A stretch of DNA of 64,000 nt from NCBI GenBank assembly GCA_023213235.1, contig CP096137.1:817587-881586 (forward strand), in the 5' to 3' direction. This document shows, one piece after another, positions 1 to 29,589 of the stretch (positions within the stretch are counted from its first letter, which is position 1; every line of letters starts with the position of its first letter). The translations under genes and the position numbers were made by a program. The DNA comes from Elusimicrobiota bacterium. GTDB taxonomy: Bacteria > Elusimicrobiota > Elusimicrobia > UBA1565 > UBA9628. The notes under the pieces are model-generated. The model was given only the letters and a program-made list of their open reading frames with translations. It did no database searches and was not told the origin of the DNA.

Positions 1-152
1 AGCCTGACTTGCATCAGGTGTTCGCGGCCCGAATATTTTAGAGCGTGCTCCGCCGCTACTCTGGGATGAAGGTCGGCGAGACGCGTGAGAGGGTAAAGGG
101 TCTCCCCAACAAGTTCATCGGGAACGTAATGATAGAGCGCAGATCTCTTCAT
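1..152 (-). CDS. Unknown protein, N-terminal 50 residues only
   Basis: The ATG overlaps the stop of the kinase/receiver gene (ATGA), so it is the last visible gene of the YcaO operon. It runs off the left edge. The visible start reads MKRSALYHYVPDEL and continues with ordinary soluble-protein composition. I do not recognise the family. The overlap suggests translational coupling and a role in the same pathway. Function cannot be assigned from 50 residues. Confidence 0.55.
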   Translation of the reverse strand, partial: MKRSALYHYVPDELVGETLYPLTRLADLHPRVAAEHALKYSGREHLMQVR

Positions 153-2165
153 TCGCTCCACGGCGGCTCCTTGCCGACCACCGCCCGGAGATATTTGAGA
201 TCGGAAAATCTTTCCGGTGGATGTCCCGACGCGAGGTATATTTCGCCGAATCCGAGAGAATAAATCCTCAATGACTCCGTCGCCCCGTCCGTCCCGCCCG
301 ACAAATTCACGTCCATGTAAACCGGCGTTCGCCGGTCGATATCTTCCGCTGCACGTAGAAAATCTGTCGGAGAGGAAAACGTGAGAAGAACCTTCCGAAA
401 ATCGGAAGCCGCGTTCTCCCATGTCATTCTCGTGAGGGGATCGTCGTCGATCAGAACGGCATCGAGCAGCCTGGGCTGCAAGCGGGGGCGCTGCGTCTGC
501 CAGGCGGATTGGGACCTGTAGCGCGAGCTCCTTCGGAAGCATCCGAATTCCATGCTGCCGGCACTCTTCCATGACGTTCGGGTCATCATATCGCCCTGTC
601 ACCAGAATCGCGCGCTGCTCCAAGCCGAGTTCGGAAGCTAGGCTAAGTCCCGTCTCCGGAAAACCGGCCAGATCATGGTCCAGAAGATACAGCGCGCGGG
701 AAGCCTCAGAAGCGTTGTTTTTGACCCACTCGCGAATATCCATCGGCTTGAACAAATCGCGAATCACGATGCTGTGACCGTCCGCGCCGATGGCATCGAG
801 ACGAGCTCTCCAGACTTGATGGATGCCTTCGTCGTCGTCAAGAATTACGACGGAACCTCCAGGAGTCAGCGCTATTTCTGGCACGAACCAGATCGGCGCG
901 GGCGCTGAGGGAAGCTCCAATGTAACGGTTGTGCCCTTGCCGATCTCGGATGCGATTTTTAAGCTTCCGCCCCAGGCGTCGACTTGGGCGCGGGCGTGAT
1001 GCAGCCCCAATCCGGACCCACCCGTTTTGCCATAGCTCGCGCCGCGTTGCCCGAGCTTTTCCATGATCTCGGGCGGTATGCCCTTGCCCGTGTCCTTTAT
1101 GACGAGGAGGATCTTGCCGTCGCTCCCTGAAACGCTCACCTGCACCGTCCCCGAGTGTTCACCCAATGCTTCTACTGCATTGTTGATGAGGTTGGATAAA
1201 ACCCGCGTTAACTCCACGGGCTGGACGCGAGCAAAAAGGCCATATGAGTCGGCATCGCTCGATGACTTTATGTCGATGTTCTGTCGAGCATCTAAAGCCA
1301 ATCGTTTTTCGGAGATGATGGAGTCAATGAGGCTCGATAGTTGGAAGGGGGAATCTGACTTGCTCGGTTCAGTCAAGGAGGCCCGCCGTTGATCGAGAAG
1401 GCCATTGGCGATGTCGCGGATGCGGGCAAGGGCCCCGCGAATTTGAAGGCGCTTCTTCTCGGGCAATGAGGCCATGTCGCCGGCAGTGGCTTCCAAGGCA
1501 GTGAGCGGGGACCGGATATCGTGCGCCACCTGCTCGGCTAGTTCGGCGCGGGCGCGAGTGTCTACTAATTGGCGCTCCTGCGCCTGGGCCACGTCGAGGC
1601 GCACGCGAATGTCGCGCATGTCCGCCATGATGCCGATGAGATCGCGTCCAGAGTCGATTTCCACTCCCGAGTCCCGCAGGAATTCGACGAGCGCGGCGGT
1701 CGTGCGGCGCTCGAGGCGCCGGACGAAGACGAGCGACATGCCCGAGATCAGGAGATAGACGAGAAGCACGGTCAAGATGGGCGCTGTCGAGAACCTGAAC
1801 GGGCGGCACATAGTGATCTTGGCCACGCCGCCGCCTCCGAGCGGGTAGGTTAGATCGCTGCAGTGACCGGGAAGGGGAGGCTTGCCGAACTGATATGTCT
1901 CGTCGGCAATGTTCAGCCGGACATGGAGATCGGAGAACTCGCGGCCGACGCCCTCGACGAAATCCCGGAACCGGCGGTTCTTGATGTCGTCGAAGCGCGA
2001 CTTGGTAAGCGTGATGGTTTGGCTGGCGACAAGACGCTGGTTGTCGGCCTGGGCCTGACGATAGAGCGTGTACCAACTGCTGGCGACCAAGGCGACGAAT
2101 AGGGCGTTGAAGATCAGCCAGACGCGCAGCGGCGAGACGAGCGTCAGGCGAGAGGGTGGGGCCAT
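149..2165 (-). CDS. Hybrid sensor histidine kinase with two C-terminal receiver domains, frame break before receiver 2
   Basis: Membrane sensor kinase. One membrane segment lies at residues about 14-34 and a second at about 126-147, with a roughly 90-residue sensor region between. The phospho-acceptor motif AHDIRSPL is near residue 217, the N box NLINNAVEAL near 330, and the ATP-binding motifs DTGKG and GGSGLGL follow. Receiver 1 starts near residue 438 (ILDDDEG, acceptor in YLLDHDLAG). Receiver 2 (VLIDDDPL, YMDVNLSGG, VVGKEPPW) lies one frame over and ends at 149. The break maps near the G5 run at 484-488, where one base less (or two more) joins the frames. The ATG lies 22 nt inside the YcaO gene, implying coupling. 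There is no DNA-binding output, so it must signal through a partner or by phosphorelay. Confidence 0.8.
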
Positions 2166-3100
2166 GGATTTCCGCCCTCCTTAAGCGACTCTTTTCCCCA
2201 ACTCAGAATGGGCCAACGTGGATTCGTCGCCGACGCGACGCAGGGAAATCCTTCGATATCGACCAGGACGCGAGTCTCGGTGTCGTCGTAGCCGCCGAGG
2301 ATGATGCCTTCGGCCGGCGCATCCTTCGCGTTCAGGAAGTCGAAGGCGGCGAGATTCCCCGGCTCCATGTAGAAGTCCCTATGCGAGGAGGGGGCGCCGC
2401 GTTCGGGAAGCGGCGCATATGATGCGGGCGAGTTTGAAAGGACGACCGCGGACCTGAGTAGCGAACGAAGAACCTTGGATTGGGCCTGGCCCATTCCGAC
2501 GCCATGGCGTTGATAGACGCAGTCGAAGAGCACGCCGCCGCTCTTGCGAGTGCCCAGCCCGCAGATCACGTCGCCCAATTTCTCTTCGGACAGGCGAAAC
2601 AGCTTGATTTTCCAGCCGAGGACTTCGAGGGAAGTGACAAGAACGCGGTTTAGAAGGCCGGTCGTTTGGATCGGAACCCAACCTTTGCGGGCATCCCACG
2701 CCGTCATATAAACGGCACGCTCGATGAGCTCGGCGCGTGCGGAGGCCTCAGCCTCTTGCGGCGTCGCTCCGCAGGCAAAGCCGTTGCTGCTGCGAAGCGG
2801 CGCGCCGGTGCCGTTTGGACAGTCACGAAGATGCTCGAACCACAGGCGCTCCCAAGCTTCAGCGAAGGCTTGGGTAAGAGAGTCGGCATAGAGCAGGCTG
2901 TCGCCGTAGCCGTAGGCTGTTCGGCCCATCCCGCCGAGACGGCATTCGACCACGGAAATAGGTAGGAGTTTGGCTGGAACCGTGAGGACCGACCAAGTAA
3001 GCTGTTCCGAACGGCCGGACTCCGGGGCCTTTATCTGTGCGGCGCCCTTTCGGATAAGGTTTAGGTCGAGGGTCCAGCGGCTACTTCCACTGGACTTCAT
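2144..3100 (-). CDS. YcaO-domain protein, probable peptide-backbone cyclodehydratase or thioamidation enzyme
   Basis: 318 residues. The YcaO ATP-binding signature sits at about 103-130: SSNGFACGATPQEA followed by an ELIER helix. The C terminus is proline-rich, ending PWPHPLA, as in many YcaO enzymes that need a Pro-rich tail. YcaO proteins use ATP to phosphorylate peptide amides, making azolines, thioamides or amidines. The usual ERD after the helix reads ERA here, so activity is not certain. It overlaps the binding-protein gene upstream by 20 nt and the kinase downstream by 22 nt. The upstream 46-residue peptide, with a Cys/Ser-containing tail, is a candidate substrate. RimO/ribosomal-type YcaO roles are less likely in this context. 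Confidence 0.75.
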   Translation of the reverse strand: MKSSGSSRWTLDLNLIRKGAAQIKAPESGRSEQLTWSVLTVPAKLLPISVVECRLGGMGRTAYGYGDSLLYADSLTQAFAEAWERLWFEHLRDCPNGTGAPLRSSNGFACGATPQEAEASARAELIERAVYMTAWDARKGWVPIQTTGLLNRVLVTSLEVLGWKIKLFRLSEEKLGDVICGLGTRKSGGVLFDCVYQRHGVGMGQAQSKVLRSLLRSAVVLSNSPASYAPLPERGAPSSHRDFYMEPGNLAAFDFLNAKDAPAEGIILGGYDDTETRVLVDIEGFPCVASATNPRWPILSWGKESLKEGGNPWPHPLA

Positions 3101-4550
3101 AGAACCGGAGACGCATGTCGAAAGGGTTTAGGCGGGAGAGATCGACACGATTGCTTGCCACGATGATGTCCGTCTCGATGAAAAGCGGCACGGCGTAGAC
3201 TTCCTTCAAGACGTGCCTGTGAAGAACGCGGACGTTCGCCTCTCGGGTATTCTTTTCCTCCGAGGTCATTATCTTGTCGAAAAACGGTTCGACCTTCGGC
3301 CGGAAATAGCGGAGATGCCCATTGTCCGGGGAGAACATGAACTGCCAACTGCCCATCGCGTCGCGTTGGTTGCCCGCGAATAAAGTCATCTGGAGGTCGG
3401 AGTCGGATTCCATCGCTGCGAGATCCTTGGCGTACCCGACGTCCAACGTGACTCCGGCCTTCGCGAACCCAGCTTTGAGAGCGGCCGCGATCTGCGGTCC
3501 ATCGGCGAATGAAGGCAGCAGGTAGAATTTCAGGCGCTTGCCGGCGAGGATGCCCCGGGATGATCCATTCGGCCCGCCGCCGTCTTCAAGGTGGCCTGAA
3601 TAACCTTTTGGGATCAATTGGCGCTCGCGGACGAGGTCTGAATACGAGAAGCCCATTAACGCCCGCTCGGTGATGAGTGCCAATTCCCGCCGTGCCTCGA
3701 CGTCGCGCCAGAGCGACCTCTCGGTATTGAAATACAGCTGATAAATCCACGTCGGGTAGCCGCGCAGCACCTGAGGCGCCTTGGCTAAGAGCTTCGGATT
3801 CGATCCACGAAAAGACGGGAGAGGTATCTTCAATAAGTCTATGTCGACGGAATCGAAGAAGTTCCCGATGGTGTCGAGCGTGAAGCCCACGAGTTCCACG
3901 CGTTCGGGATAGCCGCTTTGTACGCGATAGTGTGGATTGCTTCTCAGAACAAGACTTTTACCCGGCGCATACGATTCGACCGAGAAGGGGCCGGATGTGA
4001 CGCTCCAATCTTTCGTGAGATTGTCGGGATGGAGCAGGGCCGAGTCCGCCAGACTCAACTCGTGGACCAAGCCGTCGTTGGTGGGCGCAGAGAACTCGAG
4101 GATGAGATCCCGCTTCTCGATCTTGGCGCTGAGAAGTTTCTTCAGGTAGACGATGTGCCGGTGTTTCTCCCGGCTCAGCGACACGATATGGGCCGCGATC
4201 AGCGCGGGCTCGATCAGGGTACCGTCGCTCCAGGCCAATTCCGATCGCAAGCGGAATATCCAGCGCGTGGGCGAGAGGCGCTCCCAGGATTCCGCAATGC
4301 CGGGACCGTATCCCGACGGCGACTGACTTGAGTCTCGGACCAAGCCTACGGCCAGATTTTCGAGCAGGTAATACTGATAGACCAACTCCGTGTTCCGCGG
4401 GTCCAGTATCGTCTGGTCCTGCCGGAACACAAAGAGGAGGTATCCGACTCGGAGCGTCTTAGATTGTGTCATGCCGTGCCATGAGTAAACCAAAATCGCG
4501 CCTAATGCCGCGAACGCGAGAAGGATGAGACGACGCTTCATTGCATTCAT
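3081..4550 (-). CDS. Family 5 extracellular solute-binding protein (peptide type)
   Basis: 489 residues with one N-terminal hydrophobic segment (LILLAFAALGAILVYSW) that serves as a membrane anchor or signal. Family features are GYGPGIAESWERLSPTRWIF, then LAWSDGTLIEPALI and a TSGPFSVESYAPG segment, as in OppA/DppA/YejA proteins that bind oligopeptides for ABC import. No permease or ATPase genes are adjacent. It is therefore an orphan receptor, or works with a distant transporter. YejA-type proteins import microcin C, which makes its place in a peptide operon interesting. ATG at 4550 or 4541 are both possible. Confidence 0.75.
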   Translation of the reverse strand: MNAMKRRLILLAFAALGAILVYSWHGMTQSKTLRVGYLLFVFRQDQTILDPRNTELVYQYYLLENLAVGLVRDSSQSPSGYGPGIAESWERLSPTRWIFRLRSELAWSDGTLIEPALIAAHIVSLSREKHRHIVYLKKLLSAKIEKRDLILEFSAPTNDGLVHELSLADSALLHPDNLTKDWSVTSGPFSVESYAPGKSLVLRSNPHYRVQSGYPERVELVGFTLDTIGNFFDSVDIDLLKIPLPSFRGSNPKLLAKAPQVLRGYPTWIYQLYFNTERSLWRDVEARRELALITERALMGFSYSDLVRERQLIPKGYSGHLEDGGGPNGSSRGILAGKRLKFYLLPSFADGPQIAAALKAGFAKAGVTLDVGYAKDLAAMESDSDLQMTLFAGNQRDAMGSWQFMFSPDNGHLRYFRPKVEPFFDKIMTSEEKNTREANVRVLHRHVLKEVYAVPLFIETDIIVASNRVDLSRLNPFDMRLRFYEVQWK

Positions 4551-4645: not shown

Positions 4646-4786
4646 TTAAATGCTGCCGCCGCAGTTGCTGTCGGCAGCGGCGACGCCCACGGAGGCTTTG
4701 GTGTAGACCATCGCCGAAAGGGACGCCACGAGAGAGAACGCGCCCAGCAGGTAGCCGACGATGAGGAACGGGAGCTTTTTATTCAT
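4646..4786 (-). CDS. 46-residue peptide with membrane leader, candidate precursor
   Basis: Starts at ATG 4784-4786 behind GGAGG (12 nt spacing). The sequence begins MNKKLPFLIVGYLLGAF, a long hydrophobic stretch, then ends VGVAAADSNCGGSI. It is the first gene of the binding-protein/YcaO/kinase operon and is followed by a hairpin. In YcaO loci a small gene at this position often encodes the modified peptide, and the only Cys lies in the last seven residues. The hydrophobic leader is unusual for a YcaO substrate, so a small membrane regulator is an alternative. No family recognised. Confidence 0.6.
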   Translation of the reverse strand: MNKKLPFLIVGYLLGAFSLVASLSAMVYTKASVGVAAADSNCGGSI

Positions 4787-4837: not shown

Positions 4838-4886
4838 GAAAAATAAAAAGCCAGAGGCCTGGGCACAAGACGTGCCAAGCCTCTGG
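4838..4886 (-). terminator. Rho-independent terminator
   Basis: On the minus strand, a long imperfect stem (CCAGAGGC pairing with GCCTCTGG, plus an inner GGCAC/GTGCC stem) is followed by CTTTTTATTTTT. It lies about 160 nt beyond the TPR gene stop and just before the 46-residue peptide gene, so it separates the two transcripts. Confidence 0.8.
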
Positions 4887-5047
4887 TTTCATCCGATTGC
4901 GGTCGGATCGTGGATACCCCAGGGCCAATCCCCGGGCTACAGAGTCGCTGATTAGGCGATAATGGAGTTTAGTCGGTAAGCCTCTATTGGACGAGGGTCC
5001 AAGGACCCATTCACGGATAGGTCCTACCTCCTAGTTGCCTCGCAGGC
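4887..5047 (-). other. Non-coding 3' region with stacked short inverted repeats
   Basis: No reading frame is convincing. On the minus strand it contains GGGTCC/GGACCC, CCCGGGG/CCCTGGGG-type and CCGA/TCGG mini-hairpins between the TPR gene stop and the terminator. It could be a structured 3' UTR or a small RNA. No known riboswitch class was recognised. Confidence 0.35.
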
Positions 5048-7294: not shown

Positions 7295-8343
7295 CTAGAC
7301 AGTCTCGCAAGTAACGAACGAGCGGCGTAAATCCAATTCGGGGCAATTCGTCTTAGCCTGAGCGACCAATACGCGCGCGAGATAAGCGCGGCATGGGGCG
7401 GGGAGATTAAGACCCGGCGCCGTCGTCCATATGGCGAGCGTCTCCCACGCAAGTCTTTCACGCGGCGAGTCGGACGGCGCGGCCTCGAGTAAGCGAAGCG
7501 GAGTATCGCTCCAGGCATCCCAATCGGTGACGCCGCTTTCCGGTGATAGCCCGCAGCTCATGAGAGCCTTTGCGGCTGTCGGCTGATGCAACGCAGCGGA
7601 TAACTCAGTGACGCCGATCTCACGGGGTGACGCGCTCGATAGAGTTCGGAAAATCGGGAGCATGTAGTTCAGCAGCCAGTTCCGCAACGGCTCCCGTTGC
7701 GTCGAGGCAAGCTCCCGGAGTCGGGCTTGAATTTCAGGTCGCGGGCGGCGTGAAATGACCCATGTTTGCGAGGCGAAGCGGTCGAAAGAGAAGCGTGATA
7801 ACCCTGGGAAGCGAGATGCGCGAGCAGCAGCGCCTCGAATGGATCATGCTTCCGGGCGTAGCGGTAGAAGCGGTTCTCAGGGCGGAAGATATGGATGAAA
7901 CAGAGTCCGTCCGACGCCAGTCTTCCCGACAGCGCCTGGAGGAACTGCGTAGAGAGAATGTCCATCACCATCCCGCCTTTACCATCGTAGAGATCAATCC
8001 AGATGCTGTCGAATCGGTTCGTCCCATTCATGATGTAGTGGAGCGCGTCGCCCTCGATCGCTTCGGTTTGGGGAGGAAGGGTCTTGAGAACGCTCAGATT
8101 GAGATCTACTCCAGTCTGCCGATGCCCCGCGTCGACCCAGGCCAATCGCTGCAAGCCGGCGCCGCCGCCGATGCCGAGAGTCAAAGTATGTCCGCCGGGC
8201 GCCAAGAGCCCGGACAACGCCCAGTCATCCCAATAGTAGTACGAGAGCCGATCGCCGTCCGGAAGGTAGCTGACCATGATGTCCGACCCTTTAGGCTTTG
8301 AATCCGCCCGCCTGTCGGCGGAAGTTATCAAGATGCTTTCCAT
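7295..8343 (-). CDS. Spermidine-synthase-like SAM-dependent transferase (one frame break)
   Basis: About 349 residues when joined. SAM-binding core: LTLGIGGGAGLQRL, acidic residue in TGVDLN, EGDALHYI, and FDSIWIDLYDGKGG, the order seen in spermidine-synthase-fold enzymes. The second half (FDRFASQTWVISRR, then RELASTQREPLRNWLL) is one frame over. A missing base in the CCC run at 7802-7804 explains it. Start MESILIT was chosen because residues upstream belong to the MFS frame; the genes overlap by 16 nt. The fold suits aminopropyl or 3-amino-3-carboxypropyl transfer as well as methyl transfer. After an E1 and an MFS gene it sits where mccD does in microcin C, but sequence identity to MccD is not claimed. 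Confidence 0.7.
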
Positions 8344-9376
8344 AAAACCCCCTGCGCCATGGCCACGACATAAAATGAGCAGGCGATCGCCCCGAGCGGG
8401 TTCACAGCCGGCCACTGCATGATGAGGCCGGACAGAAGAATCCCGGAGGCTATGCCCGCATACTTCACGCTCAATGCTCGTTGGAGATCTCTCTGTCCGT
8501 AGAGGCAGTTGGTTTCGATGAAGCCGAGCAGGCCGCCCCAAACAAAAACCCCCAGCAGAATCGACGGGCCCGACAAGGCCAAGAACGCGAGCGGGACAAC
8601 CATCCAAAGTCCGAACATCTTTTTGGATTCCTTAGCGCCCAAATGGCCGCGCAACCATGATCCCCCGGCCGCGGAGAGAAGGGGGCGCTAGTCGCCAGTC
8701 CGACGGTCAAGGCTTTGCCATCGAGCATTTTGAGCGCGATGGGGTAGATCATATTGCTCAGGGCGCCGAAAGCCGCGCCCGCGAGGAATACCACGCCGAT
8801 GCCGCGCAATCCGTCAGCGGCTGCCGGAGCCTCCTTGCTTTGAGCAGCGACAGCCAACGCTGGCGCCGACTTGGGTAAGTTGAGAAGCAGGACGCATAGC
8901 AGGCTATACCCCGCGACACCGGCGATCGACACCCGATCGGCGCCGAGGAAGGCGCCGATCGCGGGCGCTAACAGCAGGCTCAGACAGCTCACCAGAAAAA
9001 TAGCGCTGTTGGCCCACGCCAACCCGCCTTCGGAGCGACGGGCTGACCAAGCCTGCACGGCGGGAATGAGCAACGACTCCATCATCCCGAGTAAAAGAGC
9101 CTGACTGGCCAAGAAGAACCATGGCTTCGGACGTCCGTATAGAGCTAGGCCCGTGAAGAGGATTCCACAGATGATCGCAAGCCAAGAGCGGCCTTTGCCC
9201 GTGATTCGATCCGCCCACGCGCGTGCCGACAACGCGGGTAAGAAGAGCAGGGCGGTGAAAACGGTGATCCCCGATGTCCCGGTCTGCTGAAGCACATCAT
9301 AGACCAAGCTGTAACGATAGGCTCCGGAGCCGAGAATACCTACGGTTAAAGCGGGGAAGAAGAATAGCGGGTTCAT
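8328..9376 (-). CDS. MFS transporter, probable peptide exporter (one frame break)
   Basis: About 350 residues with around ten to twelve hydrophobic segments, beginning MNPLFFFPALTVGILGSGAY. The first part ends at LTVGLATSA and continues as PLLSAAGGSWLRGHL in another frame. One base missing from the G5 run at 8681-8685 joins them. ATGA overlap with the E1 gene upstream indicates coupling. MFS pumps export small molecules by proton antiport; in microcin C clusters MccC is such a pump and gives self-immunity. Substrate here is inferred from context only. Confidence 0.75.
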
Positions 9377-10454
9377 GCTCTTCCCGTGCAGTGGCCGCAA
9401 TTCGGATCGGGAGGAACCTGTTCTATGGTGAGCGAGCAGTTGCTCACATCGAACTCAGCACGGCAATTGAGAAAGCGCGGCGGTTCGTATCCGGTGAGGA
9501 CCCGCACGACATCCGGCATCTGCAGGGCCGCCATCGCCGTCGTAGCAGGGAGAAAGATGCCGGCCGGCAGCTCCGAGAGCCTGTGTTCGAAAGAACCCGC
9601 CCCGGGCTTGCTCCGCCGGAGCTTATCGAAGCAGGGCCAGCAGGTGGACTGGCCGGGCAATATCGTCGGCGGTAGCGAGGACATATGCCCATTATACCCG
9701 CCCGCCGCGATCAGGGGACGCGATGCCTGTAGCAGGCCTCGAAAAGCCAGAGCGTGGTCTTGTCCATTGAAGGGTAGTCCGCGCAGTTGATCACGAGATC
9801 CGCCTGGGGCACGAGCTCATCGAGCCATGTCGCGCCCTCTTTCAACATATAAGGGTAGGCCACGACCTCCGTTTCCGGCGCCAGATGGCCTAGAAACCGC
9901 TGGAGCGCGTGAACCTTCAATGAACCGATTTGGTCGGCGTAATAAATCTGCCGGCCGAGGTTCGCCCTTTCGACCCGATCATAATCCAAGACGATGAGAC
10001 GACCGACGCCGATGCCGGCCGACTGCACGGCCATATGCGAGCCGCCGCCGCCCGCGCCGACGATGAGGATCGTGCTGCGGCGAAGGCTGTCTTGGAGGTT
10101 TCGGCCCGTCTTGCCGGAAGGCGCAAGGCCCGAAAGGTAGGGGAGTTGCCTTTGTAGGCGAGCCTCATAATGCGGCTCGAATTTCGGTTCGTGATCCGAG
10201 GCGGCGTTGCGGAATATCTTGTCTTCGCTCAGGCCTGAGAAGAAGGCGTCGATATCCTCGCGCGTGACATGCGCGGCCTTCATTTCGACGAGGATTTCAT
10301 CGATCGTTCGTCTCCCGTTGGCCAATGAGATCGCGCGTCCACCCGCCTCATCAATGTCGTAAGAGAGGATAAGACTCCGGTGGGAACAGAAGAACTTTGC
10401 GGTCGTGGGGCTTACGTCGAGCAGCATGACGTGTTCGCGGATCAATGGTTTCAT
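9373..10454 (-). CDS. E1/ThiF-like adenylating enzyme with N-terminal peptide-binding domain and zinc site (one frame break)
   Basis: About 360 residues when joined. Residues 1-75 resemble the winged RiPP-recognition/peptide-clamp fold of MccB and ocin-ThiF proteins. The nucleotide site is ILIVGAGGGGSHMAVQSAGI with VLDYDRVERANLGRQIYY, and VINCADYPSMDK follows. The protein then breaks at HRVP and resumes as LIAAGGYNGHMSSLPP. One base missing from the G4 run at 9714-9717 explains this. The C-terminal part has CWPC and CGHC, the expected Cys4 zinc site. Such enzymes adenylate a peptide C terminus (MccB) or present substrate to YcaO. ATG 10454 has GAGGAA upstream. Confidence 0.8.
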
Positions 10455-10477
10455 GGAATTCCTCAAACGGCATGATT

Positions 10478-10516
10478 GCCGCCTGCCCCGTGCGGATGCC
10501 GCACGGGACAGGCGGC
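10478..10516 (-). promoter_or_regulatory. 18-bp-stem hairpin after peptide copy 1
   Basis: Arms 10478-10495 and 10499-10516 pair with one mismatch around the loop ATG. It lies between the stop of the proximal 17-residue peptide and the E1 start. No U tract follows, so it is more likely an attenuator or mRNA stabiliser than a full terminator. It would raise peptide over enzyme expression. Confidence 0.75.
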
Positions 10517-10522
10517 GGATGC

Positions 10523-10576
10523 TTAGATCATCTTGATGTCGTTCAGCGCGACGACGGCGAGCTTCTTGAGTTTCAT
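10523..10576 (-). CDS. 17-residue peptide, copy 1 (candidate precursor)
   Basis: Encodes MKLKKLAVVALNDIKMI, then TAA. GGAGGCACC precedes the ATG, a strong ribosome site. The same peptide is encoded again 163 nt upstream with one silent change, so the protein sequence is maintained. Followed by a long hairpin and the E1 enzyme gene. Tiny genes before MccB-like enzymes encode the substrate peptide. Known MccA peptides end in Asn, whereas this ends in Ile, with Asn at position 12. A leader peptide controlling translation is the alternative. Confidence 0.65.
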   Translation of the reverse strand: MKLKKLAVVALNDIKMI

Positions 10577-10652
10577 GGTGCCTCCATTTTGCGGGGTTGT
10601 CGTTCAGTGCGCCTGCGTCGAACGTCTGAGTTTCGATTTTCCTGCTTCGATG

Positions 10653-10684
10653 CCGTCCGCCGTTCTTTGGCAGATGGCGGACGG
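10653..10684 (-). promoter_or_regulatory. Hairpin after peptide copy 2
   Basis: CCGTCCGCC (10653-10661) pairs with GGCGGACGG (10676-10684) around a 14-nt loop, directly after the TAA of the upstream peptide copy. It parallels the hairpin after copy 1 but is unrelated in sequence, which suggests selection for structure. Confidence 0.65.
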
Positions 10685-10685
10685 T

Positions 10686-10739
10686 TTAGATCATCTTGAT
10701 GTCGTTCAGCGCGACGACGGCGAGCTTCTTGAGCTTCAT
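10686..10739 (-). CDS. 17-residue peptide, copy 2 (candidate precursor)
   Basis: Encodes the same MKLKKLAVVALNDIKMI as the copy at 10523, with the same GGAGGCACC ribosome site. The first Lys/Leu codons differ by one base only. It is the promoter-proximal gene of the E1/MFS/SAM-enzyme operon. Its ATG is 60 nt from the left 17-bp inverted repeat, which may form part of its promoter. Confidence 0.65.
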   Translation of the reverse strand: MKLKKLAVVALNDIKMI

Positions 10740-10798: not shown

Positions 10799-10815
10799 GT
10801 GATCAATTTTTATGC
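10799..10815 (+). repeat. Left copy of perfect 17-bp inverted repeat
   Basis: GTGATCAATTTTTATGC; its exact reverse complement is at 13913-13929. The pair brackets the sigma-54-like cassette. No target-site duplication is visible outside. It lies just upstream of the peptide operon on the minus strand, so operator, promoter or transposon-end roles are all possible. Confidence 0.85.
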
Positions 10816-10891
10816 TGTTGCACGTAGGACGGGTCAGGGTGCGCTAGAATGTTCTGGGCGAATTGGGCCGGTGAATTGCAGGAGGGTGAAA

Positions 10892-11249: not shown

Positions 11250-12603
11250 GTGAGAAAGCTCAAGGTCTTGGTCATCGAGGACGATCCTCTCGCGCGCGAG
11301 CTCATGAAGGGGAGTTGCGAGAGCACGAGGTGGACTTCGCCGCAGATCTGGCGTCCGGCCGCAAGAAGATCGCCGCTCGCCGCAATGACATCTGCTTCAT
11401 CGACCTCAAGCTGGGAGCCAAGGACGACAAGTCCGGGCTGGAACTGCTCCCATTGGCGGCCAAGGCGGGGGCGTATTGCGTGGTGATGTCCGGCCATGAC
11501 TCGGAGGCGGTGGTCGAGCGCGCCTATGAGCTCGGCTGCGACGACTTCTACGCCAAGGGCAACGAAGAGGAGAACGTGAGCGCGGTCGTCGCTCGTTTCC
11601 TGCGCAAGCGCCCGGAGGGCGGCGAGGACCGCCTGTTCAAGGACCTCTTCATCACCGAGGACGCGGCCACGCGCGCCAGCGTCACCGAGACGCTCAAGTA
11701 CGCGGCCTCGGACCTGCCGGTCATCATCCTGGGGCCTTCCGGCACCGGCAAGACGAGTCTGGCCGAGGTCATTCATGGCCGCTCGGGCCGCACGGGGCAG
11801 TTCGTCGCCATCAACTGCGCCGCCTATACGGAGGATCTGCTTGAAGCGGAGCTCTTCGGCTACCGCAAGGGCGCCTTCACTGGTGCTGCGGACGGACGCA
11901 AGGGCAAGCTCCTCCTGGCGGACGGGGGAACGCTCTTCTTGGACGAGATCGGTTCTATGAGCCTTGCGATGCAGACCAAGCTTCTCAAGGCCATCGAGGA
12001 GAAGGCCTTCCATCCCCTCGGCTCGGACAGCGCCGTGAAGTCCCGCTTCCGCATTGTCAGCGCGACGTTGGAGAACCTCCAGAATCTCGTCAAAAGGGGC
12101 GTCTGCGTTTCGATTTCCTTCAACGCGTTCAAGGCGTGACCATCGAACTGAAGCCCTTGGCCCGGCGAAAGGACGACATCCTCCCTCTTATCTCCTTCTT
12201 CAACCGCGGCGGACTGCGGTTGTCCTTCACGGCGGACGCCAAAGAACTGCTTCTGCGCCACGACTGGCAGGGCAACGTTCGGGAGCTCAAGAAGTTCGTG
12301 GACTTGGCGGCGGGCGGCGAGTCCGGGCGCGTCACCGCCGATGCGGCGCGCCAGCTTTTGGCGACGACCCGCGCGGGCCAGTCCTCCGATGAGTTCCTGA
12401 CCGAGAAGCAGTACCACTATATCCTCGAAAACGGCCTCTACGCCGCGGTCAATCGCTTCGAAGACGGGGCGATCCAGCGCAACCTGACGGACAATGAGGG
12501 CCGAAAGACCAAGGTCATGGCCGACTTGAAGATAGACACCGGCCTACTCTACAAGTCCCTCAAGAGGACCGGTAAGCATCGGAGCAAGACCAATGGCGAC
12601 TGA
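11250..12603 (+). CDS. NtrC-type response regulator: receiver plus sigma-54-activator AAA domain (two frame breaks)
   Basis: About 451 residues when joined. The receiver (VLVIEDDPLARELM, acceptor Asp in FIDLKLG, Lys in FYAKGN) covers residues 1-115. The AAA domain follows: Walker A GPSGTGKTS near 163, the sigma-54 contact loop ELFGYRKGAFTGA near 205, and Walker B GGTLFLDEIGSM near 228. One base is missing near 11309-11312 (G4), and one near 12092-12099 (A4G4), after which TIELKPLARRKDDI continues. The C-terminal 60 residues may hold a Fis-like helix pair but are not typical. GTG at 11250 follows a TAGAAT box closely and has no ribosome site, so the transcript may be leaderless. It should activate a sigma-54-type polymerase, probably with the factor encoded two genes on. 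Confidence 0.8.
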
Positions 12604-12802
12604 TCTCGCCGCCGAACTGGCGGATTTGCGTCACGACATCAACGCCAAGTGTCCCAACCTCAAGACGGCGGCGGCGCAGCTGCGCGGCGAGTCCACGGAG
12701 AGGGAGATTAAGCTCGTGCGGCTGATGGAGGAGCAGGCGCGCTCGGTGGCCGAGCGGATCGCCGCTTACGGGGCGCTGCTGCGCGACGGCCGCCGGAAAT
12801 GA
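12593..12802 (+). CDS. Small helical protein with H-box-like motif
   Basis: 69 residues, two predicted helices. DLRHDINAKCPNL resembles the H box of histidine-kinase dimerisation or phosphotransfer helices, and the rest (KLVRLMEEQARSVAERIAAY) would be the second helix of a hairpin. No ATPase domain follows. It overlaps the activator gene by 11 nt and the sigma-54-like gene by 4 nt, so all three are co-translated. A phosphotransfer partner of the receiver is a reasonable inference; a simple coiled coil is the alternative. Confidence 0.55.
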   Translation: MATDLAAELADLRHDINAKCPNLKTAAAQLRGESTEREIKLVRLMEEQARSVAERIAAYGALLRDGRRK

Positions 12803-13848
12803 AGTTCCGGGCCGCGACCTCTGGCCGCGCCAGCGTCCAGGTCGGCATCAAGCTCGCCCGTCTTTTGGAACTGCCCGAAGGGGACTTCGCGGGCCGTGTG
12901 CGCGAACTCGAGGCCGATGTCCTGTTCCGACGCCTCCTTCACGCCAAGGTGATCTCGGTCCAGCCTTACGCCGGCGCGGGCTTCATGACGCAGAGGTTCG
13001 GCGGGTGGGGACTGAGCACGGCGAGCGACGGCGTCCCGGCGCTCGACGGACAAGGAGACCTCGCTAAACTCATCCAGAAGGTCGGTGAGAAGCGCTTCCA
13101 AGAATTCTTCTTGAGCGACGAGGGCTACACGGACGATGAGCGCGCGCGGATGTGCAAGGTAACGAAAGAAGAGGCCGGGCGGCTGAGGGAGCTCGTCAAC
13201 AGCCTCTACGTCCAGGCCGAGTTCGACGGGGCGTCGTCCACCGCCGCGCCCGCGAAGACCTACAGCGCGGTCGCGGGGATCACGGTGGACGGCGGAAAGC
13301 CCAGCCTCGCCTTCTTCAACCGCCAGATTTGGAAAGGACGCTACCAAGTCAACGAGGACAAGAGCCGCCGGATGCTCGACTCCCTTCCGGCCTCGGAAGC
13401 GCGGCGTTTGGAGGGTTTCCTGCGAGAACTGGGCCTGCTTGACCGCCGTAAGAGCACGCTTTACCGCGTGCTCGAAGCGCTAATTGAGGCCCAGGCACCG
13501 TTCTTCATCAGCGGCGACCCGGACCAGCGCCGGCCGCTGACCCAGCGCGACCTTTCGGACAAGCTCGACATATCGCCGAGCGTCCTCAATCGACTGATCT
13601 CGAACAAGTCGGTCCAGCTTCCCTGGGGACTTGAGGCGCCCATGAAGACGCTCGTTCCCAGCCGGAAGTCCTTGATCCGAGATCGTCTCCACGATCTCGT
13701 TCGCCTATATCCAGCCGCGACGGATGAAGATCTGGGCCGAAGGATCGACCGCCTCTATGGCGTTCGACTTTCCCTACGATCTATCGCGCAGTACCGCACG
13801 GAACTGGGTCTCGGCAACCTCCGCAAGCGCCGACAGACCTCCGCCTAA
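12799..13848 (+). CDS. Divergent, short sigma-54 (RpoN)-like factor
   Basis: 349 residues, against about 480 for ordinary RpoN. The N terminus (QVGIKLARLLELPEGDF then RELEADVLFRRLL) resembles the Gln/Leu-rich region I that meets the activator. The core includes LTQRDLSDKLDISPSVLNRL followed by ISNKSVQLPWG, matching the RpoN helix-turn-helix followed by a SNKYV-type segment. The end (SLRSIAQYRTELGL, GNLRKRR) aligns with the RpoN box, usually ARRTVAKYRE. The box is diverged, so promoter recognition probably differs. Immediately after a GAFTGA activator this makes a self-contained sigma-54 switch. Confidence rests on motif order, not on a search. Confidence 0.65.
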   Translation: MKFRAATSGRASVQVGIKLARLLELPEGDFAGRVRELEADVLFRRLLHAKVISVQPYAGAGFMTQRFGGWGLSTASDGVPALDGQGDLAKLIQKVGEKRFQEFFLSDEGYTDDERARMCKVTKEEAGRLRELVNSLYVQAEFDGASSTAAPAKTYSAVAGITVDGGKPSLAFFNRQIWKGRYQVNEDKSRRMLDSLPASEARRLEGFLRELGLLDRRKSTLYRVLEALIEAQAPFFISGDPDQRRPLTQRDLSDKLDISPSVLNRLISNKSVQLPWGLEAPMKTLVPSRKSLIRDRLHDLVRLYPAATDEDLGRRIDRLYGVRLSLRSIAQYRTELGLGNLRKRRQTSA

Positions 13849-14156
13849 GCGCCGCCCGGCGCTTCGCTTCCCAATCTCTCTCCCTCTCGCGGGATTGCTT
13901 CCGGCTTCAACTGCATAAAAATTGATCACCGGTGGCGTCAGGGTGACGCGCTTCGGGAGTCGTCGGTCCCGATGAGAGCGGAGGTGAAGTCCTCCGGCTC
14001 CCGAAAAGGGATGCGCCGCCCGCCCCTGGATCTTCCAGGCTTGGCGGGAACGGCCACGAGCGCGGTCCTTACAAGGCGCATTCGGCATCGCCGGACGCCT
14101 CAAATAACCGCTGAGCCCACCGAGAACCGGACGCCAAGTGAAGGGATGGTGCCTTC
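13849..14156 (+). other. Intergenic region with right inverted repeat
   Basis: Holds a GCGCCGCCCGGCGC hairpin just after the sigma-54-like gene, the right copy of the 17-bp repeat, and about 230 nt with no convincing frame before the next gene. Confidence 0.5.
13913..13929 (-). repeat. Right copy of perfect 17-bp inverted repeat
   Basis: Plus-strand GCATAAAAATTGATCAC, the reverse complement of 10799-10815. Similarity beyond the 17 bp is weak (a GTTG just inside each copy). Confidence 0.85.
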
Positions 14157-14912
14157 GTGGCCCACTTGCACAATGCCGTCGTCGTTTCCTCTGCCATTGC
14201 CTCTGCCGTTGCCGCCGCCGCTGTCGCTGAATCCACCCGGGACGTCGAACTCGCCCACCGCGCCGCAGCGCTCCTGGTCCGCCTCAAACCCTGCCTCGAC
14301 CCCGAGCAGGTCGTTCACGAGTTGCTTCGCCAGCAGCGGGTGGAGAAGCTATCGCGCGAGTCGCGCAACCTCAACCATTGGAGCGAGCACGCGCCGAAGT
14401 TCCTGGCCCTGATCGTGCGGCAGGCGCGGCTCGATCGTCTGCGCCGCTACCAGGAAGCCGAGGCTTTCTACAAGGCTAGGCACCGAGAGATCGTTCGGTT
14501 CGCGCGGGTGATCATCGGCGACTCTGCGGCGGCCGAGATCGTCGCCTCGGACACCTACCGGGAACTACTTGAGGGGAGCATTACCATCGCGGGTTTCTTC
14601 GCCGCTTTGGTCGCCAACGCCCGCAACTATCTGGCACGGCGGTCCTACCGGCAAGGCAAGTTCGTGCCGTTGGACGAGGCCTTTACTCCGAGCTTCGGAA
14701 GCACGGACATGGAAGGCGATGAGGGGGAAGCTCCGTCGTTCGAGCCCATCTCCCAGCGGCTCGACGACCAGGACCCGCTCGAAATCCTGATCGCCCGCGA
14801 GGAAGAAACCGCCCGCCGGCGGATGGTGGCGGCGGCCAAAGAGGACCCGCGTTGGCGCTACATCAAGCGGCGGGATTGGGCCGCGCCGCTGTCGAGAAAT
14901 GTGCGGAATTGA
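14157..14912 (+). CDS. ECF sigma-like protein (region 2-like)
   Basis: 251 residues from GTG. The middle segment (YQEAEAFYKARHREIVRFAR then VIIGDSAAAEIVASDTYREL) has the shape of ECF sigma region 2, including an aromatic/basic helix and the DAE-like acidic patch followed by DTYREL. An AALVANARNYLARRSYR helix follows. No clear region 4 is visible. The end (RRDWAAPLSRNVRN) may be shifted: a neighbouring frame reads AVEKCAELTSSWDR, so a base error near 14885 is possible. The N terminus is Ala/Val-rich. It lies between the sigma-54-like cassette and the transfer genes and may control transfer. Function is inference. Confidence 0.45.
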   Translation: MAHLHNAVVVSSAIASAVAAAAVAESTRDVELAHRAAALLVRLKPCLDPEQVVHELLRQQRVEKLSRESRNLNHWSEHAPKFLALIVRQARLDRLRRYQEAEAFYKARHREIVRFARVIIGDSAAAEIVASDTYRELLEGSITIAGFFAALVANARNYLARRSYRQGKFVPLDEAFTPSFGSTDMEGDEGEAPSFEPISQRLDDQDPLEILIAREEETARRRMVAAAKEDPRWRYIKRRDWAAPLSRNVRN

Positions 14913-15049
14913 CCAGCTCGTGGGATAGGTAAGTGCCGGGTCGATTTGCGGGCAGTCGGGTAGCCAGTCCGAACCAAACGGGGAGCAAGCTTCTCCACCT
15001 GCCCTGCAAGTTTGACCCAAGAGATTGAGAGCAGCAAGGAGAGACGAGC

Positions 15050-15262
15050 ATGGACGAGCCTGTGGAACTTGGAGGGGCAGCGCGCGGAGGCCGGCCGCCG
15101 AAGACGGTGGCGATCATGGTGAACCTGCCGGTGGCGGACCACGAAACCCTCGCCAAGGCGGGCATCAAGAAGATGCGCCTGACCGGCGAGGACGTACCGC
15201 GCGACCGTCTGATCTCCGAGGCGATCCAGCATTACGCCAAGAGCCTGAGCGCGGCGGAATAG
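15050..15262 (+). CDS. Small ribbon-helix-helix-like DNA-binding protein
   Basis: 70 residues. A short disordered start (MDEPVELGGAARGGRPPKTV) leads to a beta-strand AIMVNLPVADHETLAKAG and two helices (PRDRLISEAIQHYAKSL), the pattern of MetJ/Arc-type repressors and relaxosome accessory proteins. GGAGAG lies upstream of the ATG. First gene in front of the transfer module, where oriT-binding accessory proteins often sit. Confidence 0.6.
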   Translation: MDEPVELGGAARGGRPPKTVAIMVNLPVADHETLAKAGIKKMRLTGEDVPRDRLISEAIQHYAKSLSAAE

Positions 15263-15633
15263 GTGAAGCACCCCTCGGGCGGGTCCTCGGGCATGTCCGA
15301 GGGGGAGGAAGAAGAGTCGTGGGCGAGAAATCGAAGGTTTTGCTGCCAAACCTTGCCCTCTTCGTCCGCGCCGTTGGCGCGTTCGCCTCCTGACCCCTCC
15401 CTCCCAACCACAAAAGAGTGGTGTGGGATGAAGGGGTCAGGAGGACAGAGGGCAAAAGGCAGCAAAAAAGAGAAAGAAGAAAAAACAACAACAGCAACAG
15501 CAACAACAACGGAAACAGAAAACAGAAAAAACAAACAGAGAACGGAAAGAAAAACAGAAGGGAAAAGTCAGAAGGAACAGAAAGAAGGGAACGGGAAAAC
15601 AGCAACAGCAAAAGAGGGAGAACTCGATTGGCG
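15263..15633 (+). other. Non-coding region with A-rich, T-poor low-complexity tract
   Basis: From about 15460 to 15620 the plus strand is almost free of T and made of AAAG, CAACAA and AACAG units. A frame runs through it in phase with the next gene, but its product would be only Lys/Asn/Arg repeats. The start at 15634, with AGAGGGAG upstream, is preferred. The tract would be unstructured as RNA or easily melted as DNA. It could be a translation enhancer or part of an oriT. Confidence 0.5.
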
Positions 15634-16446
15634 ATGAAGACGACGGCGGATGTGCGGCGCGGGGAAATCCAGCTAACGGCGCGAGACATTAAGATGCTCG
15701 CGGCGCTCGAGAAGTGGATCGTGCTCGGCATCGGCCAGATGGTCGGGCTCGGCCTGGAGCCGACGCTGGGCGAGGCCGAACTCATCGAGCGCTTCTTCAA
15801 CAAGATGGAGCGAGAGGACTACAAGCTCGGCGTCTTCAACCGCGTCCACGCGCTGGAGGCCCAGGGCTATATCAATGGGCACTCCTTCCTGCGCCAGCCG
15901 AAGGCCTACACGCTGACCGAGCGGGGCTTTAACGCCCTGCGCGACGAGCCGGTCGAGCATCGTCCCGAGATCCGCGACGTCGTGAGCGAGGCCATGATCC
16001 GCCACGAACTGAAGGCCTCCGCCGTGGGCTTGGTCCTCACGGAAGTCCTGGGACTTCCCGCGGCGCGCCAGCACCCGAAGGCCGTCTGGACGCACACGGG
16101 CGGCCGCCGGCGTCTCGTGGTCGAGGGCGCCTCCGACCTCTGGATCGAGTCCTCCGAGCCCAAAGCGATCGAGGTCGAGCTGACGCAGAAGTCCAAAGGG
16201 CGCTACGAGGAGATCTTCGAGACCTACCGCCGCCGCCTGACGCGCGGCGGCGTGGTCCTCTATCTCACGGGCTGGCCGGGCGGGGCGGCCATCATCCTTA
16301 AGAACGCCCGCGCGCAGCGCGCGCCTTTCGTCTACGCCTGCGGCCTGGACGATTTCCGCCGCTCCGCGGGGCGCTGCGTCTTCCAAGGCGCGGTCGAGAG
16401 CCGCGCGATCGTTCTGGGCGCGGCCGGAGTGGAGGCCGCGCGATGA
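15634..16446 (+). CDS. Replication-relaxation family protein
   Basis: 270 residues. An N-terminal winged helix (LTARDIKMLAALEKW, then FNRVHALEAQGYING and PKAYTLTERGFNAL) is followed by an alpha/beta region with acidic/Lys residues (WIESSEPKAIEVELTQKSKG) that looks like a degenerate nuclease-like fold, as in the replication-relaxation family found beside TraG/VirD4 genes of Gram-positive and candidate-phylum elements. It overlaps the coupling-protein gene by 4 nt (ATGA). It may handle oriT DNA in place of a standard relaxase. Confidence 0.65.
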   Translation: MKTTADVRRGEIQLTARDIKMLAALEKWIVLGIGQMVGLGLEPTLGEAELIERFFNKMEREDYKLGVFNRVHALEAQGYINGHSFLRQPKAYTLTERGFNALRDEPVEHRPEIRDVVSEAMIRHELKASAVGLVLTEVLGLPAARQHPKAVWTHTGGRRRLVVEGASDLWIESSEPKAIEVELTQKSKGRYEEIFETYRRRLTRGGVVLYLTGWPGGAAIILKNARAQRAPFVYACGLDDFRRSAGRCVFQGAVESRAIVLGAAGVEAAR

Positions 16447-18192
16447 GCCCCTGGTCCTTCCTCGCCGTCATGACCGTGATGCTCGCGGGTTTAGCCGGCC
16501 TGCGCAGCGAGCGCCGGGCGCTCGGCGGCGCGCTGACGGGCCTTGCCGCCGCCCTATTCGTGGCCCTCATGCCCTGGCAGACGGTGGACTGGTTGAGCAG
16601 CGCGCACCGCGGCTTCGGCCGCTGGTACGAGCCGCGCCGGAGCGTCGTTCGGCTCGGCTGGACGGCGGCGTCCGCCTGCTTCGGCGCGGCCGTGGGACTC
16701 GGCGCCGCCGGACGTAAGACCGCCGCCCAGGACGAGAAGGACTGGGAGACGCCTGCGGATTCCAAGGTCGTGGACGAGGAACTCGGACGCAGGCTACAGG
16801 CGGGCCGGGGCGAGGAGACCTTCCTGGGACTGACGAGCGGCAAGCGCCGGATCACCTCACGGCGCGCGAGCGCGAGGGACACATGCAGGTCGTGGGCCCG
16901 ACGCGCTCGGGGAAGTCGCAGCTCCTGCTGGCGCTCGCCGCCCAGGATATGAAGGCGGGCCTGCCGCTCTTCTTTATGGAAGCCAAGGGCGACCGGGGGA
17001 CTTCGACCAGTTCCTCAAGACGGCATCGATCGCCGGACGGCTCGACTCGGTGCGCTACTTCAACCCGCAGGACGACCGCTCCATGACCTTCAACCCGATC
17101 CGGCCCGTCTCCGGACAGGACTCCACCGCCGTGGCGAACCAGATCGCCCGCGCCATCGGCCGCGAGCCCACCTCCTCGGGCGAGGGGCAGGACTACTACC
17201 GCGCGGTCGACTACGCGAAAGTGCAGACCATGGCCGAGGTGTTCTGCGCGACCGGCCGGGCCTTCACGCTGCGCGACTGCTACTACTACTTCGCCTTCCC
17301 CGAGGCGCGCACTGAGGCGTTCAAGCTCTGTCGCGACCGGCGGCTGGCGGAGCTCGCCCGCTCCGAGTTCGAGGCCAACCCCGATTCGAGCGGCCTCACC
17401 TCCGCGCTTCGCCCTTGGACGACCGGGCCTTTGGGCGAGCTCCTCAACAGCTATGCGCCCCAGATCCGCCTCGAGGATGTATTCGAGCGCGGCCATGCCG
17501 CCTACTTCGCGGTTCCCGTCGGACATCTCCAGGTGCTCGCCAACCCGCTCGGCCGCATGGTGATCTCAGGGCTCCTGTCGGTGGCGGCCGCGCGCCAGCG
17601 CACTGAGCCCAAGCCCGGGCCCGCCACCGTGATCTTGGACGAGTTCGCCGAGTTCGCCACGCCGGTCTTCGCCTCCTTCGTGGCGACCGTGGGCTCGGCC
17701 AAGCTGCGCACGATCCTCTCGCACCAGGACCTCGGCCAGCTCAAGCGCGTGGAGGGGATGGACGTCGCGGCCTTCGAGTCGGTCGTCTTCAACAACACCT
17801 CCGGCTGCAAGGTCTGCTTCCGCTCGCCTAACCCGGAGGACGCGGAGTTCTGGGCCTCGACCCTCGGCACGCGGACGACGACGAGCGACACGGAGCGCGT
17901 CGAGAGCGCGCTCCTGGGCGACCACCGGACCGGCGACCGCTCGCGGCGCGAGGTGGAGCGCTTCAAGGTCCATCCTAACCAACTCAAGTCGCTGGAGCCC
18001 GGCACGGCGCTCGTGCTCTCGCCCGGCCGCGCCGAGTGCCTGGTCCGCACCGCGCGCGTGCGCGAGGTCGCGCGACCGCTTTCAATCCCGCCGCTGAGAC
18101 CGGTGTCCCTCGACACGGAGAAGGGTCTCGATTTACGTGCTGCCGTTCCTGATTACGGCGCTCAACACGAATTCCCGGAGGTGAAGTCTTGA
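16443..18192 (+). CDS. traD: TraD/VirD4-type coupling ATPase (two frame breaks)
   Basis: About 583 residues when joined. Two N-terminal membrane segments (PWSFLAVMTVMLAGLAGL and LGWTAASACFGAAVGLG), then Walker A VGPTRSGKSQLLLAL, then FNPIRPVSG and Walker B-like TVILDEFAEFATP, and SHQDLGQLKR near the end, as in conjugation coupling proteins that bring DNA to the type IV channel. Breaks lie near 16855-16856 (ITLTARERE is restored by one added C) and in the G5 run at 16995-16999 (GDRGDFDQFLK restored by one G). It is coupled to the relaxation-family gene upstream. Confidence 0.85.
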
Positions 18193-22597: not shown

Positions 22598-22901
22598 TCA
22601 AGAAGATGACGGGCGCGGCCCTGGCGGCCGCGAGCATGACGATGACGGCGACGCAGGCCTTCGCGCAGTACGGCGGCAACGAGGGCCAGCTCGGCAACTT
22701 CCTCAACGGGTCGGCCAACTGGCTCATCACGATCCTGGGGCCGGGCATATTCCTGCTCGGGATCATCTGGGTCGGCATCAGCCTTGCCGCCGGCGACCAA
22801 GACGCGATGAGGAAGGGCGGCTTCGTGGTGGGCGGGGAGCGCTGATCTTCCTCGCGCCCTCGCTGATGGCGCTGATGAAGCGGCTGGCCGGCGGGTTCTG
22901 A
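22594..22901 (+). CDS. virB2: VirB2/TrbC-type pilin (one frame break)
   Basis: About 102 residues when joined. A long cleavable leader (MIKKMTGAALAAASMTMTAT), then a short loop and two hydrophobic helices, WLITILGPGIFLLGIIWVGI and, after the break, ALIFLAPSLMALMKRL. This is the pilin layout. One base is missing in the G4 run at 22834-22837. ATGA overlap with the preceding gene. VirB2 subunits build the conjugative pilus. Confidence 0.75.
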
Positions 22902-22902
22902 G

Positions 22903-23409: not shown

Positions 23410-23470
23410 ACACGGTCCCGTCCGGCTCGCGGCGAGAAAAGCCGCGGGCCGGTCGGGCCACGATTTCATA

Positions 23471-23770
23471 ATGGAAAGCGTCAAAGTCTATCGCAGCGTC
23501 AACAGTGGCGACCGCTTCTTCGGCCTGGAACTGGCCGATGGAGCGGTGCTCCTGCTCGTATTCTTCTTCACGTTCAGCTTCAACCGTGAGGGGTTGTTCG
23601 GCAACGGTGTCGTCCTGCTGCTGGCGTACTTCGGCATCCGCGCGCTCAAGCGCAACAAGCCGGAGGGCTACGTGTTGGACCTGACGCGCTACGTCCTCGC
23701 AAGCCGCTTCAAATCGGTCGGTGCGTTCGATGAATCTGAGTCGGTGGATGGAGAGGAACCTCGAAAATGA
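23471..23770 (+). CDS. virB3: VirB3/TraL-like membrane protein
   Basis: 99 residues from ATG 23471. Charged start (MESVKVYRSVNSGDRFFGL), then two hydrophobic segments (AVLLLVFFFTFSFN and GNGVVLLLAYFGIRAL) and a basic tail, the VirB3/TraL layout, directly upstream of VirB4. Ribosome site is weak. Confidence 0.6.
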   Translation: MESVKVYRSVNSGDRFFGLELADGAVLLLVFFFTFSFNREGLFGNGVVLLLAYFGIRALKRNKPEGYVLDLTRYVLASRFKSVGAFDESESVDGEEPRK

Positions 23771-29585: not shown

Positions 29586-29589
29586 AACC

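Follow-up and report, generated by a model that had tools for sequence, protein, structure and literature searches.

Microcin C is made from a very short precursor peptide by the enzyme MccB. All MccB substrates end in Asn, and in E. coli there is a terminator between the precursor gene mccA and mccB (PMC6495379). The subject here is a peptide cassette that is laid out like the microcin C operon, in a 64,000 nucleotide stretch of an Elusimicrobiota bacterium (GenBank GCA_023213235.1, contig CP096137.1, positions 817,587 to 881,586). This whole stretch is called the window, and coordinates are given within it. The cassette occupies 7295..10739 on the minus strand. The window genome (3.8 Mb, one contig) is called G000, and it was compared with the other members of a set of 235 genomes of the class Elusimicrobia. 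The initial annotation described the locus as a microcin-C-like operon. It is probably something else: an exchangeable cassette at the output of a peptide-sensing circuit that depends on sigma-54, delivering a ribosomally synthesized and post-translationally modified peptide (RiPP).

The cassette starts with two open reading frames (ORFs) at 10686..10739 and 10523..10576 (both on the minus strand). As initially described, they encode the same 17 residues, MKLKKLAVVALNDIKMI, and a single synonymous base separates them. Each has a GGAGG Shine-Dalgarno sequence ahead of it and a hairpin behind it. The first hairpin (10653..10684, minus strand) is attenuator-like, with a predicted folding energy of -28.8 kcal/mol. 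The second and stronger one lies between the second peptide and the next gene (10478..10516, minus strand; -44.7 kcal/mol with its flanks), a position like that of the E. coli terminator.

In four other genomes of the class, the same place is taken by one ORF or a pair of ORFs, each exactly 17 codons long and with a good ribosome-binding site. This means that the 17-codon ORFs are beyond chance. The peptides are MKLKKLAVVALNDNKCI in G014, MKLIKTQTAALDIIKGV and MKLIKTAARRLDLVKGV in G013, MKLIKTQSAGLDIIKGV and MKLIKTEAARLDIIKGV in G018, and MKLVAAEVYELKCTKNI and MKLIKTDVSGLKDIKLI in G057. The window peptide defines the motif MKL.{7}L...K.[IV] with these, and all seven peptides of the relatives fit it (MKL.......L...K.[IV]); it was seen nowhere else in the loci scanned. 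Length, the MKL start, Leu11, Lys15 and a C-terminal Ile or Val are invariant across the five genomes. The absence of a C-terminal Asn, already remarked upon for the window peptide, therefore holds for every precursor in the family. The window 17-mer also lacks Cys, Ser, Thr, Trp and Glu.

The peptides are followed by a gene for an E1/ThiF-like enzyme, a predicted peptide adenylyltransferase (9373..10454, minus strand, with one frameshift near 9690-9715). It matches Pfam ThiF at 1.9e-28. This E1 is rare: it was found in 5 of the 235 genomes (G000, G013, G014, G018 and G057), each time with 17-mers directly upstream. The N-terminal clamp-like domain and the Cys4 site that were originally recognised in it are both conserved among the E1s, and R168, K180, D226 and the four Cys are invariant in ten of them. 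The first three of these residues are equivalent to ATP/Mg residues of MccB and of the enterofaecin enzyme EnfB.

The initial annotation left it to structure-based comparison to decide whether this enzyme is closer to MccB or to housekeeping enzymes of the MoeB type. A profile search of the PDB gives MccB at 3.7e-29, ahead of MoeB (9.2e-27), ThiF (2.2e-25) and the pantocin enzyme PaaA (1.8e-24). An AlphaFold2 model (mean predicted local distance difference test, pLDDT, 82.6) was compared using Foldseek. The model fits MccB (3h5n) over its full length, at E 3.7e-21 and template modelling (TM) scores of 0.68/0.72. PaaA is second, also at full length (5.4e-18, TM 0.70/0.77), and ThiF and MoeB match over the catalytic domain only. 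A housekeeping MoeB/ThiF identity is rejected on these grounds and because of the clamp domain. Of the two outcomes that the initial annotation had named as refuting it, a better match to housekeeping enzymes and homologous loci lacking the short peptide, neither occurred. In a tree, the Elusimicrobia E1s form their own clade (100/100) on a long stem, while MccB is a long branch and the deep forks are weak (65/50). The E1 probably works like MccB, but its product is unlikely to be microcin C. By sequence, the cassette belongs to the ThiF-like adenylyltransferase (TLAT) RiPPs in the broad sense, with a short precursor, a clamp-domain E1 and an apparently intact ATP/Mg site.

Two more genes complete the cassette, and as initially stated, the genes are coupled by overlaps. 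The first encodes a polytopic membrane protein, a probable exporter (8328..9376, minus strand). It had been called a major facilitator superfamily (MFS) pump, but its likeness to that family is weak: of the four relatives, a single one matches MFS_1, at E=0.039. The second encodes an S-adenosylmethionine (SAM) enzyme with a spermidine-synthase-like domain (7295..8343, minus strand; NCBIfam PRK04457, 5.6e-8). Its proposed spermidine-synthase fold is supported to the extent of a weak family match in G013 (Pfam Spermine_synth, 5.8e-7); the AlphaFold2 model is poor (pLDDT 46.6). The E. coli mcc plasmid has the order MRTGNAN, ThiF, MFS and SAM-methyltransferase, so the shared gene order holds up. 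The suggested parallel to mccC and mccD does not: no homology to MccC was detectable for the membrane protein in a profile comparison (probability 0.2%), nor to MccD for the SAM enzyme (hhalign probability 0.5%, E 0.12). Homology to the microcin C operon is thus shown for the E1 only. MccD performs an aminocarboxypropyl transfer, and is optional within the microcin C-type family.

The E1, membrane-protein and SAM genes of the window have one frameshift each, and the regulator and kinase genes described below are broken too. All are intact in relatives, and the simplest reading is single-base long-read errors. This suggests sequencing errors, not decay. Decay was considered and rejected, given that unrelated genes of the assembly share such single-base breaks.

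Like the microcin C operon, the window cassette starts from a very short precursor that has a Shine-Dalgarno sequence of its own ahead and a hairpin behind; the clamp/Cys4 E1 and the order of peptide, E1, transporter and SAM enzyme are shared as well. The differences are that the window precursor has 17 residues ending in K-x-Ile/Val where mccA has 7 ending in Asn, that it is duplicated, that the transporter and SAM enzyme are not detectably MccC and MccD, and that the cassette lies in a sigma-54 sensor circuit.

Other systems come close in other ways. In pantocin A, whose enzyme PaaA is the second-best full-length fold match of the E1, the chemistry uses Glu-Glu-Asn; the window 17-mer has no Glu. 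ThiF loci of Pantoea piersonii and of Salmonella plasmid pRM11060-2 also have a 17-residue ORF directly before ThiF (MKFTKFNASNATLAAVG and MKFTKHATSNAKLALVG; L157 2368-2421 and L159 1627-1680). The next gene after ThiF is annotated as MFS in the former and is unnamed in the latter. These peptides have another C-terminus, however, the enzymes fall in a separate E1 clade, and no sigma-54 circuit was seen in the stretch read. Enterofaecin (EnfA/EnfB) is the example of an MccB-like enzyme working on a C-terminal Ile: it acts on WWIVI through a single-ATP acyl-adenylate, and forms a macrocyclic imide or amide (PMC12250964). By that description, enzyme and C-terminal residue are alike. The 17-mers differ in having no Trp pair; Trp is in fact absent from all of them, as is any WWIVI-like C-terminal motif. 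They also have the invariant Lys at -3, and their cassette has Gram-negative export genes.

These comparisons narrow the chemistry. The succinimide route of MccB needs a C-terminal Asn by its established mechanism and is excluded here (PMC12250964). Thiolactone (Grc) and indolylamide (Ind) formation need a Cys or Trp nucleophile. Cys occurs in just two family peptides and the window 17-mer has neither residue, nor Glu, which excludes these two and pantocin-type chemistry for the window peptide. What is left would be a lactam to Lys15, Lys2 or the N-terminus, an enterofaecin-like backbone imide, or amidation. Lys15 is favoured as lactam partner because it is invariant and near the C-terminus, though this is an argument from sequence position. 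The 17-mers thereby offer a concrete substrate for an MccB-like enzyme that is barred from Asn/succinimide chemistry. Such an enzyme should reveal another resolution of the C-terminal acyl-adenylate.

Control of exchangeable bacteriocin cassettes by a pheromone, a kinase and a regulator is known from the streptococcal Blp and Com loci. The window appears to have control of this general kind, but differs in its sigma-54/NtrC control, periplasmic binding protein, RiPP maturases and riboswitch gate. The cassette faces, on the opposite strand, a gene for an NtrC-type response regulator (11250..12603, plus strand; frameshifted here) and then one for a dedicated sigma-54 paralog (12799..13848, plus strand). 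The G018 ortholog of the regulator matches Sigma54_activat at 3e-51. Its GAFTGA motif is intact in relatives, and the window regulator is 96% identical to that of G013. The sigma-54 paralog matches TIGR02395 at 2.1e-15 (Sigma54_DBD at 8.7e-14 in G013). A separate RpoN-type paralog elsewhere in the genome is 34% identical to it.

Ahead of the 17-mers is a sigma-54-like promoter, CAGCATAAAAATTGATC (10801..10817, minus strand), found by motif search and conservation. The 17-base motif, GCATAAAAATTGATCAC, has a second copy after the sigma-54 gene, ahead of a block of type IV secretion system (T4SS) genes (13911..13927, plus strand), and this copy is conserved in G013. At 0 mismatches, the motif GCATARAAATTGATCNC has exactly 2 sites in the 3.8 Mb genome, and the reversed control has 0. 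Every relative has it ahead of its 17-mers, and in G003, G004 and G006 it precedes the cassette that stands there instead. With a GAFTGA-bearing activator, a sigma-54 factor and a promoter of presumably matching type all nearby, this is, judged from its parts, a sigma-54-regulated system.

In G004, a further copy of the sigma-54-like motif stands ahead of a TPR gene and a gene for an ATP-grasp enzyme of the MvdD type (Pfam 3.1e-10; L161 3-635 and 949-1773). This suggests that graspetides are an output too.

The sensing half of the circuit lies downstream on the cassette's strand, with two other genes in between. It is an operon that starts with a 2'-deoxyguanosine-II (2'-dG-II) riboswitch aptamer (4878..4947, minus strand; RF03165, 75.6 bits). 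In the folds of four loci, the 3' strand of P1 is reused in the following terminator. An ON switch is predicted from this, so that the ligand would turn the operon on. The operon, all on the minus strand, encodes a small secreted peptide that is a candidate pheromone precursor (MNKKLPFLIVGYLLGAFSLVASLSAMVYTKASVGVAAADSNCGGSI; 4646..4786; conserved in G003), a solute-binding protein of family 5 (oligopeptide-type) that has no ABC transporter of its own and is the likely receptor (3081..4550; Pfam SBP_bac_5, 1.1e-19), a YcaO protein that is a candidate maturase of the small peptide (2144..3100; Pfam YcaO, 1.4e-7), and a hybrid sensor histidine kinase with receiver domains (152..2165; frameshifted here, intact in relatives).

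Within the class, 93 of the 235 genomes have 2'-dG-II riboswitches, 59 have the sigma-54 paralog, and 50 have both (Fisher 1.7e-16, from a hand count of two listings that does not correct for ancestry). In 15 pairs on the same contig, the two are 1 to 24 kb apart. In another bacterial family of the class, small ORFs, genes for radical SAM or YcaO enzymes and genes for family-5 binding proteins follow several of the riboswitches. Published gene associations of this riboswitch class are few, and the list consists of receiver, PLD, ComEC and EndI (PMC8872408). The setting with peptides, maturases and binding proteins is not on that list, and the Elusimicrobia are a frequent home for the class. 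Nothing relevant turned up in literature searches that paired Elusimicrobia with quorum sensing, sigma-54 or radical SAM.

Loci where the riboswitch stands before small secreted peptides, maturases and peptide-binding proteins are, besides the one in the window, L033, L034, L160, L142 and L143. At one of these, TldD- and PmbA-like proteases adjoin the riboswitch and a radical SAM/binding-protein operon (L143 6717-9393). A conserved protein, EYxYCTMYGVNIVxGNIxSCxNIQRSL, sits behind its own 2'-dG-II riboswitch beside the kinase gene (L033 4641-5078, L034 213-803, L160 2102-2641).

The relation between sensor and cassette becomes visible when relatives are compared. The sensor operons of G000 and G003 are orthologous: riboswitch, small peptide, binding protein (67%), YcaO (79%) and kinase (74% from residue 1). 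G003 also keeps the regulator and the sigma-54 factor (83%). Yet behind the same promoter, the G003 slot holds a B12 radical SAM RiPP methyltransferase (TIGR03975, 3.4e-197), together with an MFS exporter and a short ORF that resembles a precursor. G006 has the B12 radical SAM and MFS genes behind its promoter as in G003, and the slot in G004 holds a ryptide-type radical SAM maturase, a transporter-like protein and a methyltransferase. Conversely, G013 and G018 share the cassette (E1 84%, membrane protein 74%, SAM enzyme 74%, first 17-mers near-identical), but their binding proteins are unrelated, and one has a radical SAM enzyme where the other has YcaO. Sensors and cassettes assort independently, which makes the E1 product more likely an output than a signal. 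In this setting, which the initial annotation missed, the E1 cassette is most likely one among several RiPP cassettes that can take each other's place on the sensor/sigma-54 circuit.

Put together, the circuit could work as follows. The small secreted peptide would be the pheromone, probably matured by YcaO (by the radical SAM enzyme in G013). Its operon, apparently switched on by 2'-deoxyguanosine, would also make the receptor, consisting of the binding protein and the hybrid kinase. Phosphate would pass from the kinase to the NtrC-type regulator, which together with the dedicated sigma-54 would fire the promoters at 10801-10817 and 13911. The hairpins would lead to an excess of 17-mers, which the clamp domain of the E1 would hold while their C-terminal Ile/Val carboxylate is adenylated. 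The acyl-AMP would then be resolved without Asn or succinimide, most likely as a lactam or imide with the invariant Lys at -3, or by amidation. The SAM enzyme may modify the product and the membrane protein may export it; the likeliest role of the product is in competition, as with a bacteriocin.

A wider proposal is more tentative, and somewhat doubtful as a whole: that this is RiPP communication throughout the Elusimicrobiota, in which a RiPP pheromone is licensed, along with its receptor, by a 2'-dG ON riboswitch, whole RiPP cassettes are swapped in a slot fired by a private sigma-54/NtrC pair, and the MccB-like E1 of one such cassette forms a new linkage from Lys -3 to the terminal carboxylate on leaderless-looking 17-mers. 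The locus points to a regulated and exchangeable RiPP system in a phylum of which few members have been cultivated.

Four points weigh against the output-cassette interpretation. No immunity gene was recognised, which a toxin usually needs. G014 has the cassette and promoter, and no sigma-54 paralog was found in this 75% complete genome. The sigma-54 type of the promoter is judged from its resemblance and its neighbourhood. Finally, neither a small secreted peptide nor a riboswitch was seen near the circuit in G057, where contigs are broken, so the 17-mers there could be the signal.

This last point belongs to the strongest rival, which is that the 17-mers themselves are the pheromone. The E1 would mature an exported signal, the binding protein would capture it, and kinase, regulator and sigma-54 would switch on the cassette's own operon in positive feedback. 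The operon does adjoin a complete sensor circuit and carries the circuit promoter, the binding protein is of a peptide-binding family, and in G057 the 17-mers are the sole peptide seen beside the sensor genes. The pair G000 and G013, taken alone, even resembles a pherotype swap: the E1s are 67% identical, and identity is undetectable for the genes of the membrane protein, the SAM enzyme and the binding protein. Sensor specificity does not track the cassette, however. In G003 an orthologous sensor goes with a different cassette, and in G013 and G018 near-identical 17-mers go with unrelated binding proteins. This demotes the pherotype reading to an unlikely one.

The T4SS block, of conjugation type, lies at 14157..30649 (plus strand; TraG/D, TraC, TrbL/VirB6, VirB8, TrbI). 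From the regulator through the T4SS, G000 and G013 share 88.8% DNA identity over 19.7 kb, and most T4SS genes are about 85-98% identical as proteins, while chromosomal genes are far more diverged. The baseline is the second, chromosomal RpoN-type gene, at about 55-64% protein identity (RpoB and RecA gave none). The contrast makes a recent sharing of this block by transfer probable. It is possibly an integrative element; no relaxase or element ends were found. The cassette might then serve the mobile element, with peptide and T4SS co-induced for transfer or mating, as the second promoter copy ahead of the T4SS in G000 and G013 and the shared block would suggest. But G018, G003 and G057 keep the circuit with no T4SS in the stretches read, and this explanation is quite improbable.

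Less probable still is a strict microcin C antibiotic, where MccB makes a peptide-nucleotide conjugate that MccD aminopropylates and MccC exports. It would account for the mccABCD gene order, the MccB fold and the hairpin after the peptide. It founders on the C-terminal Asn, which is needed for the N-P bond (PMC6495379, PMC12250964) and is missing. In addition, the homologies to MccD and MccC are undetectable, no MccE, MccF or HIT immunity gene was noticed, and the E1s do not nest with MccB in the tree with its weak deep forks.

That E1 and YcaO form a split thiazole/oxazole (TOMM) cyclodehydratase acting on the 17-mer, as YcaO in the same region and a weak TOMM match at the E1 C-terminus (1.9e-4) might suggest, is rejected as barely credible: the E1 retains an ATP site of its own, Cys, Ser and Thr are all missing from the window 17-mer, and the two genes segregate independently, with the cassette but no YcaO seen in the sensor operon of G013, and YcaO without E1 in G003.

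Short ORFs before ThiF-like genes also occur elsewhere. In Patescibacteria and in an uncultured bacterium, ThiF-like genes stand in tandem, and a short ORF whose product ends in R-x-R-A or RRRRA comes before each pair (L040, L042, L043).

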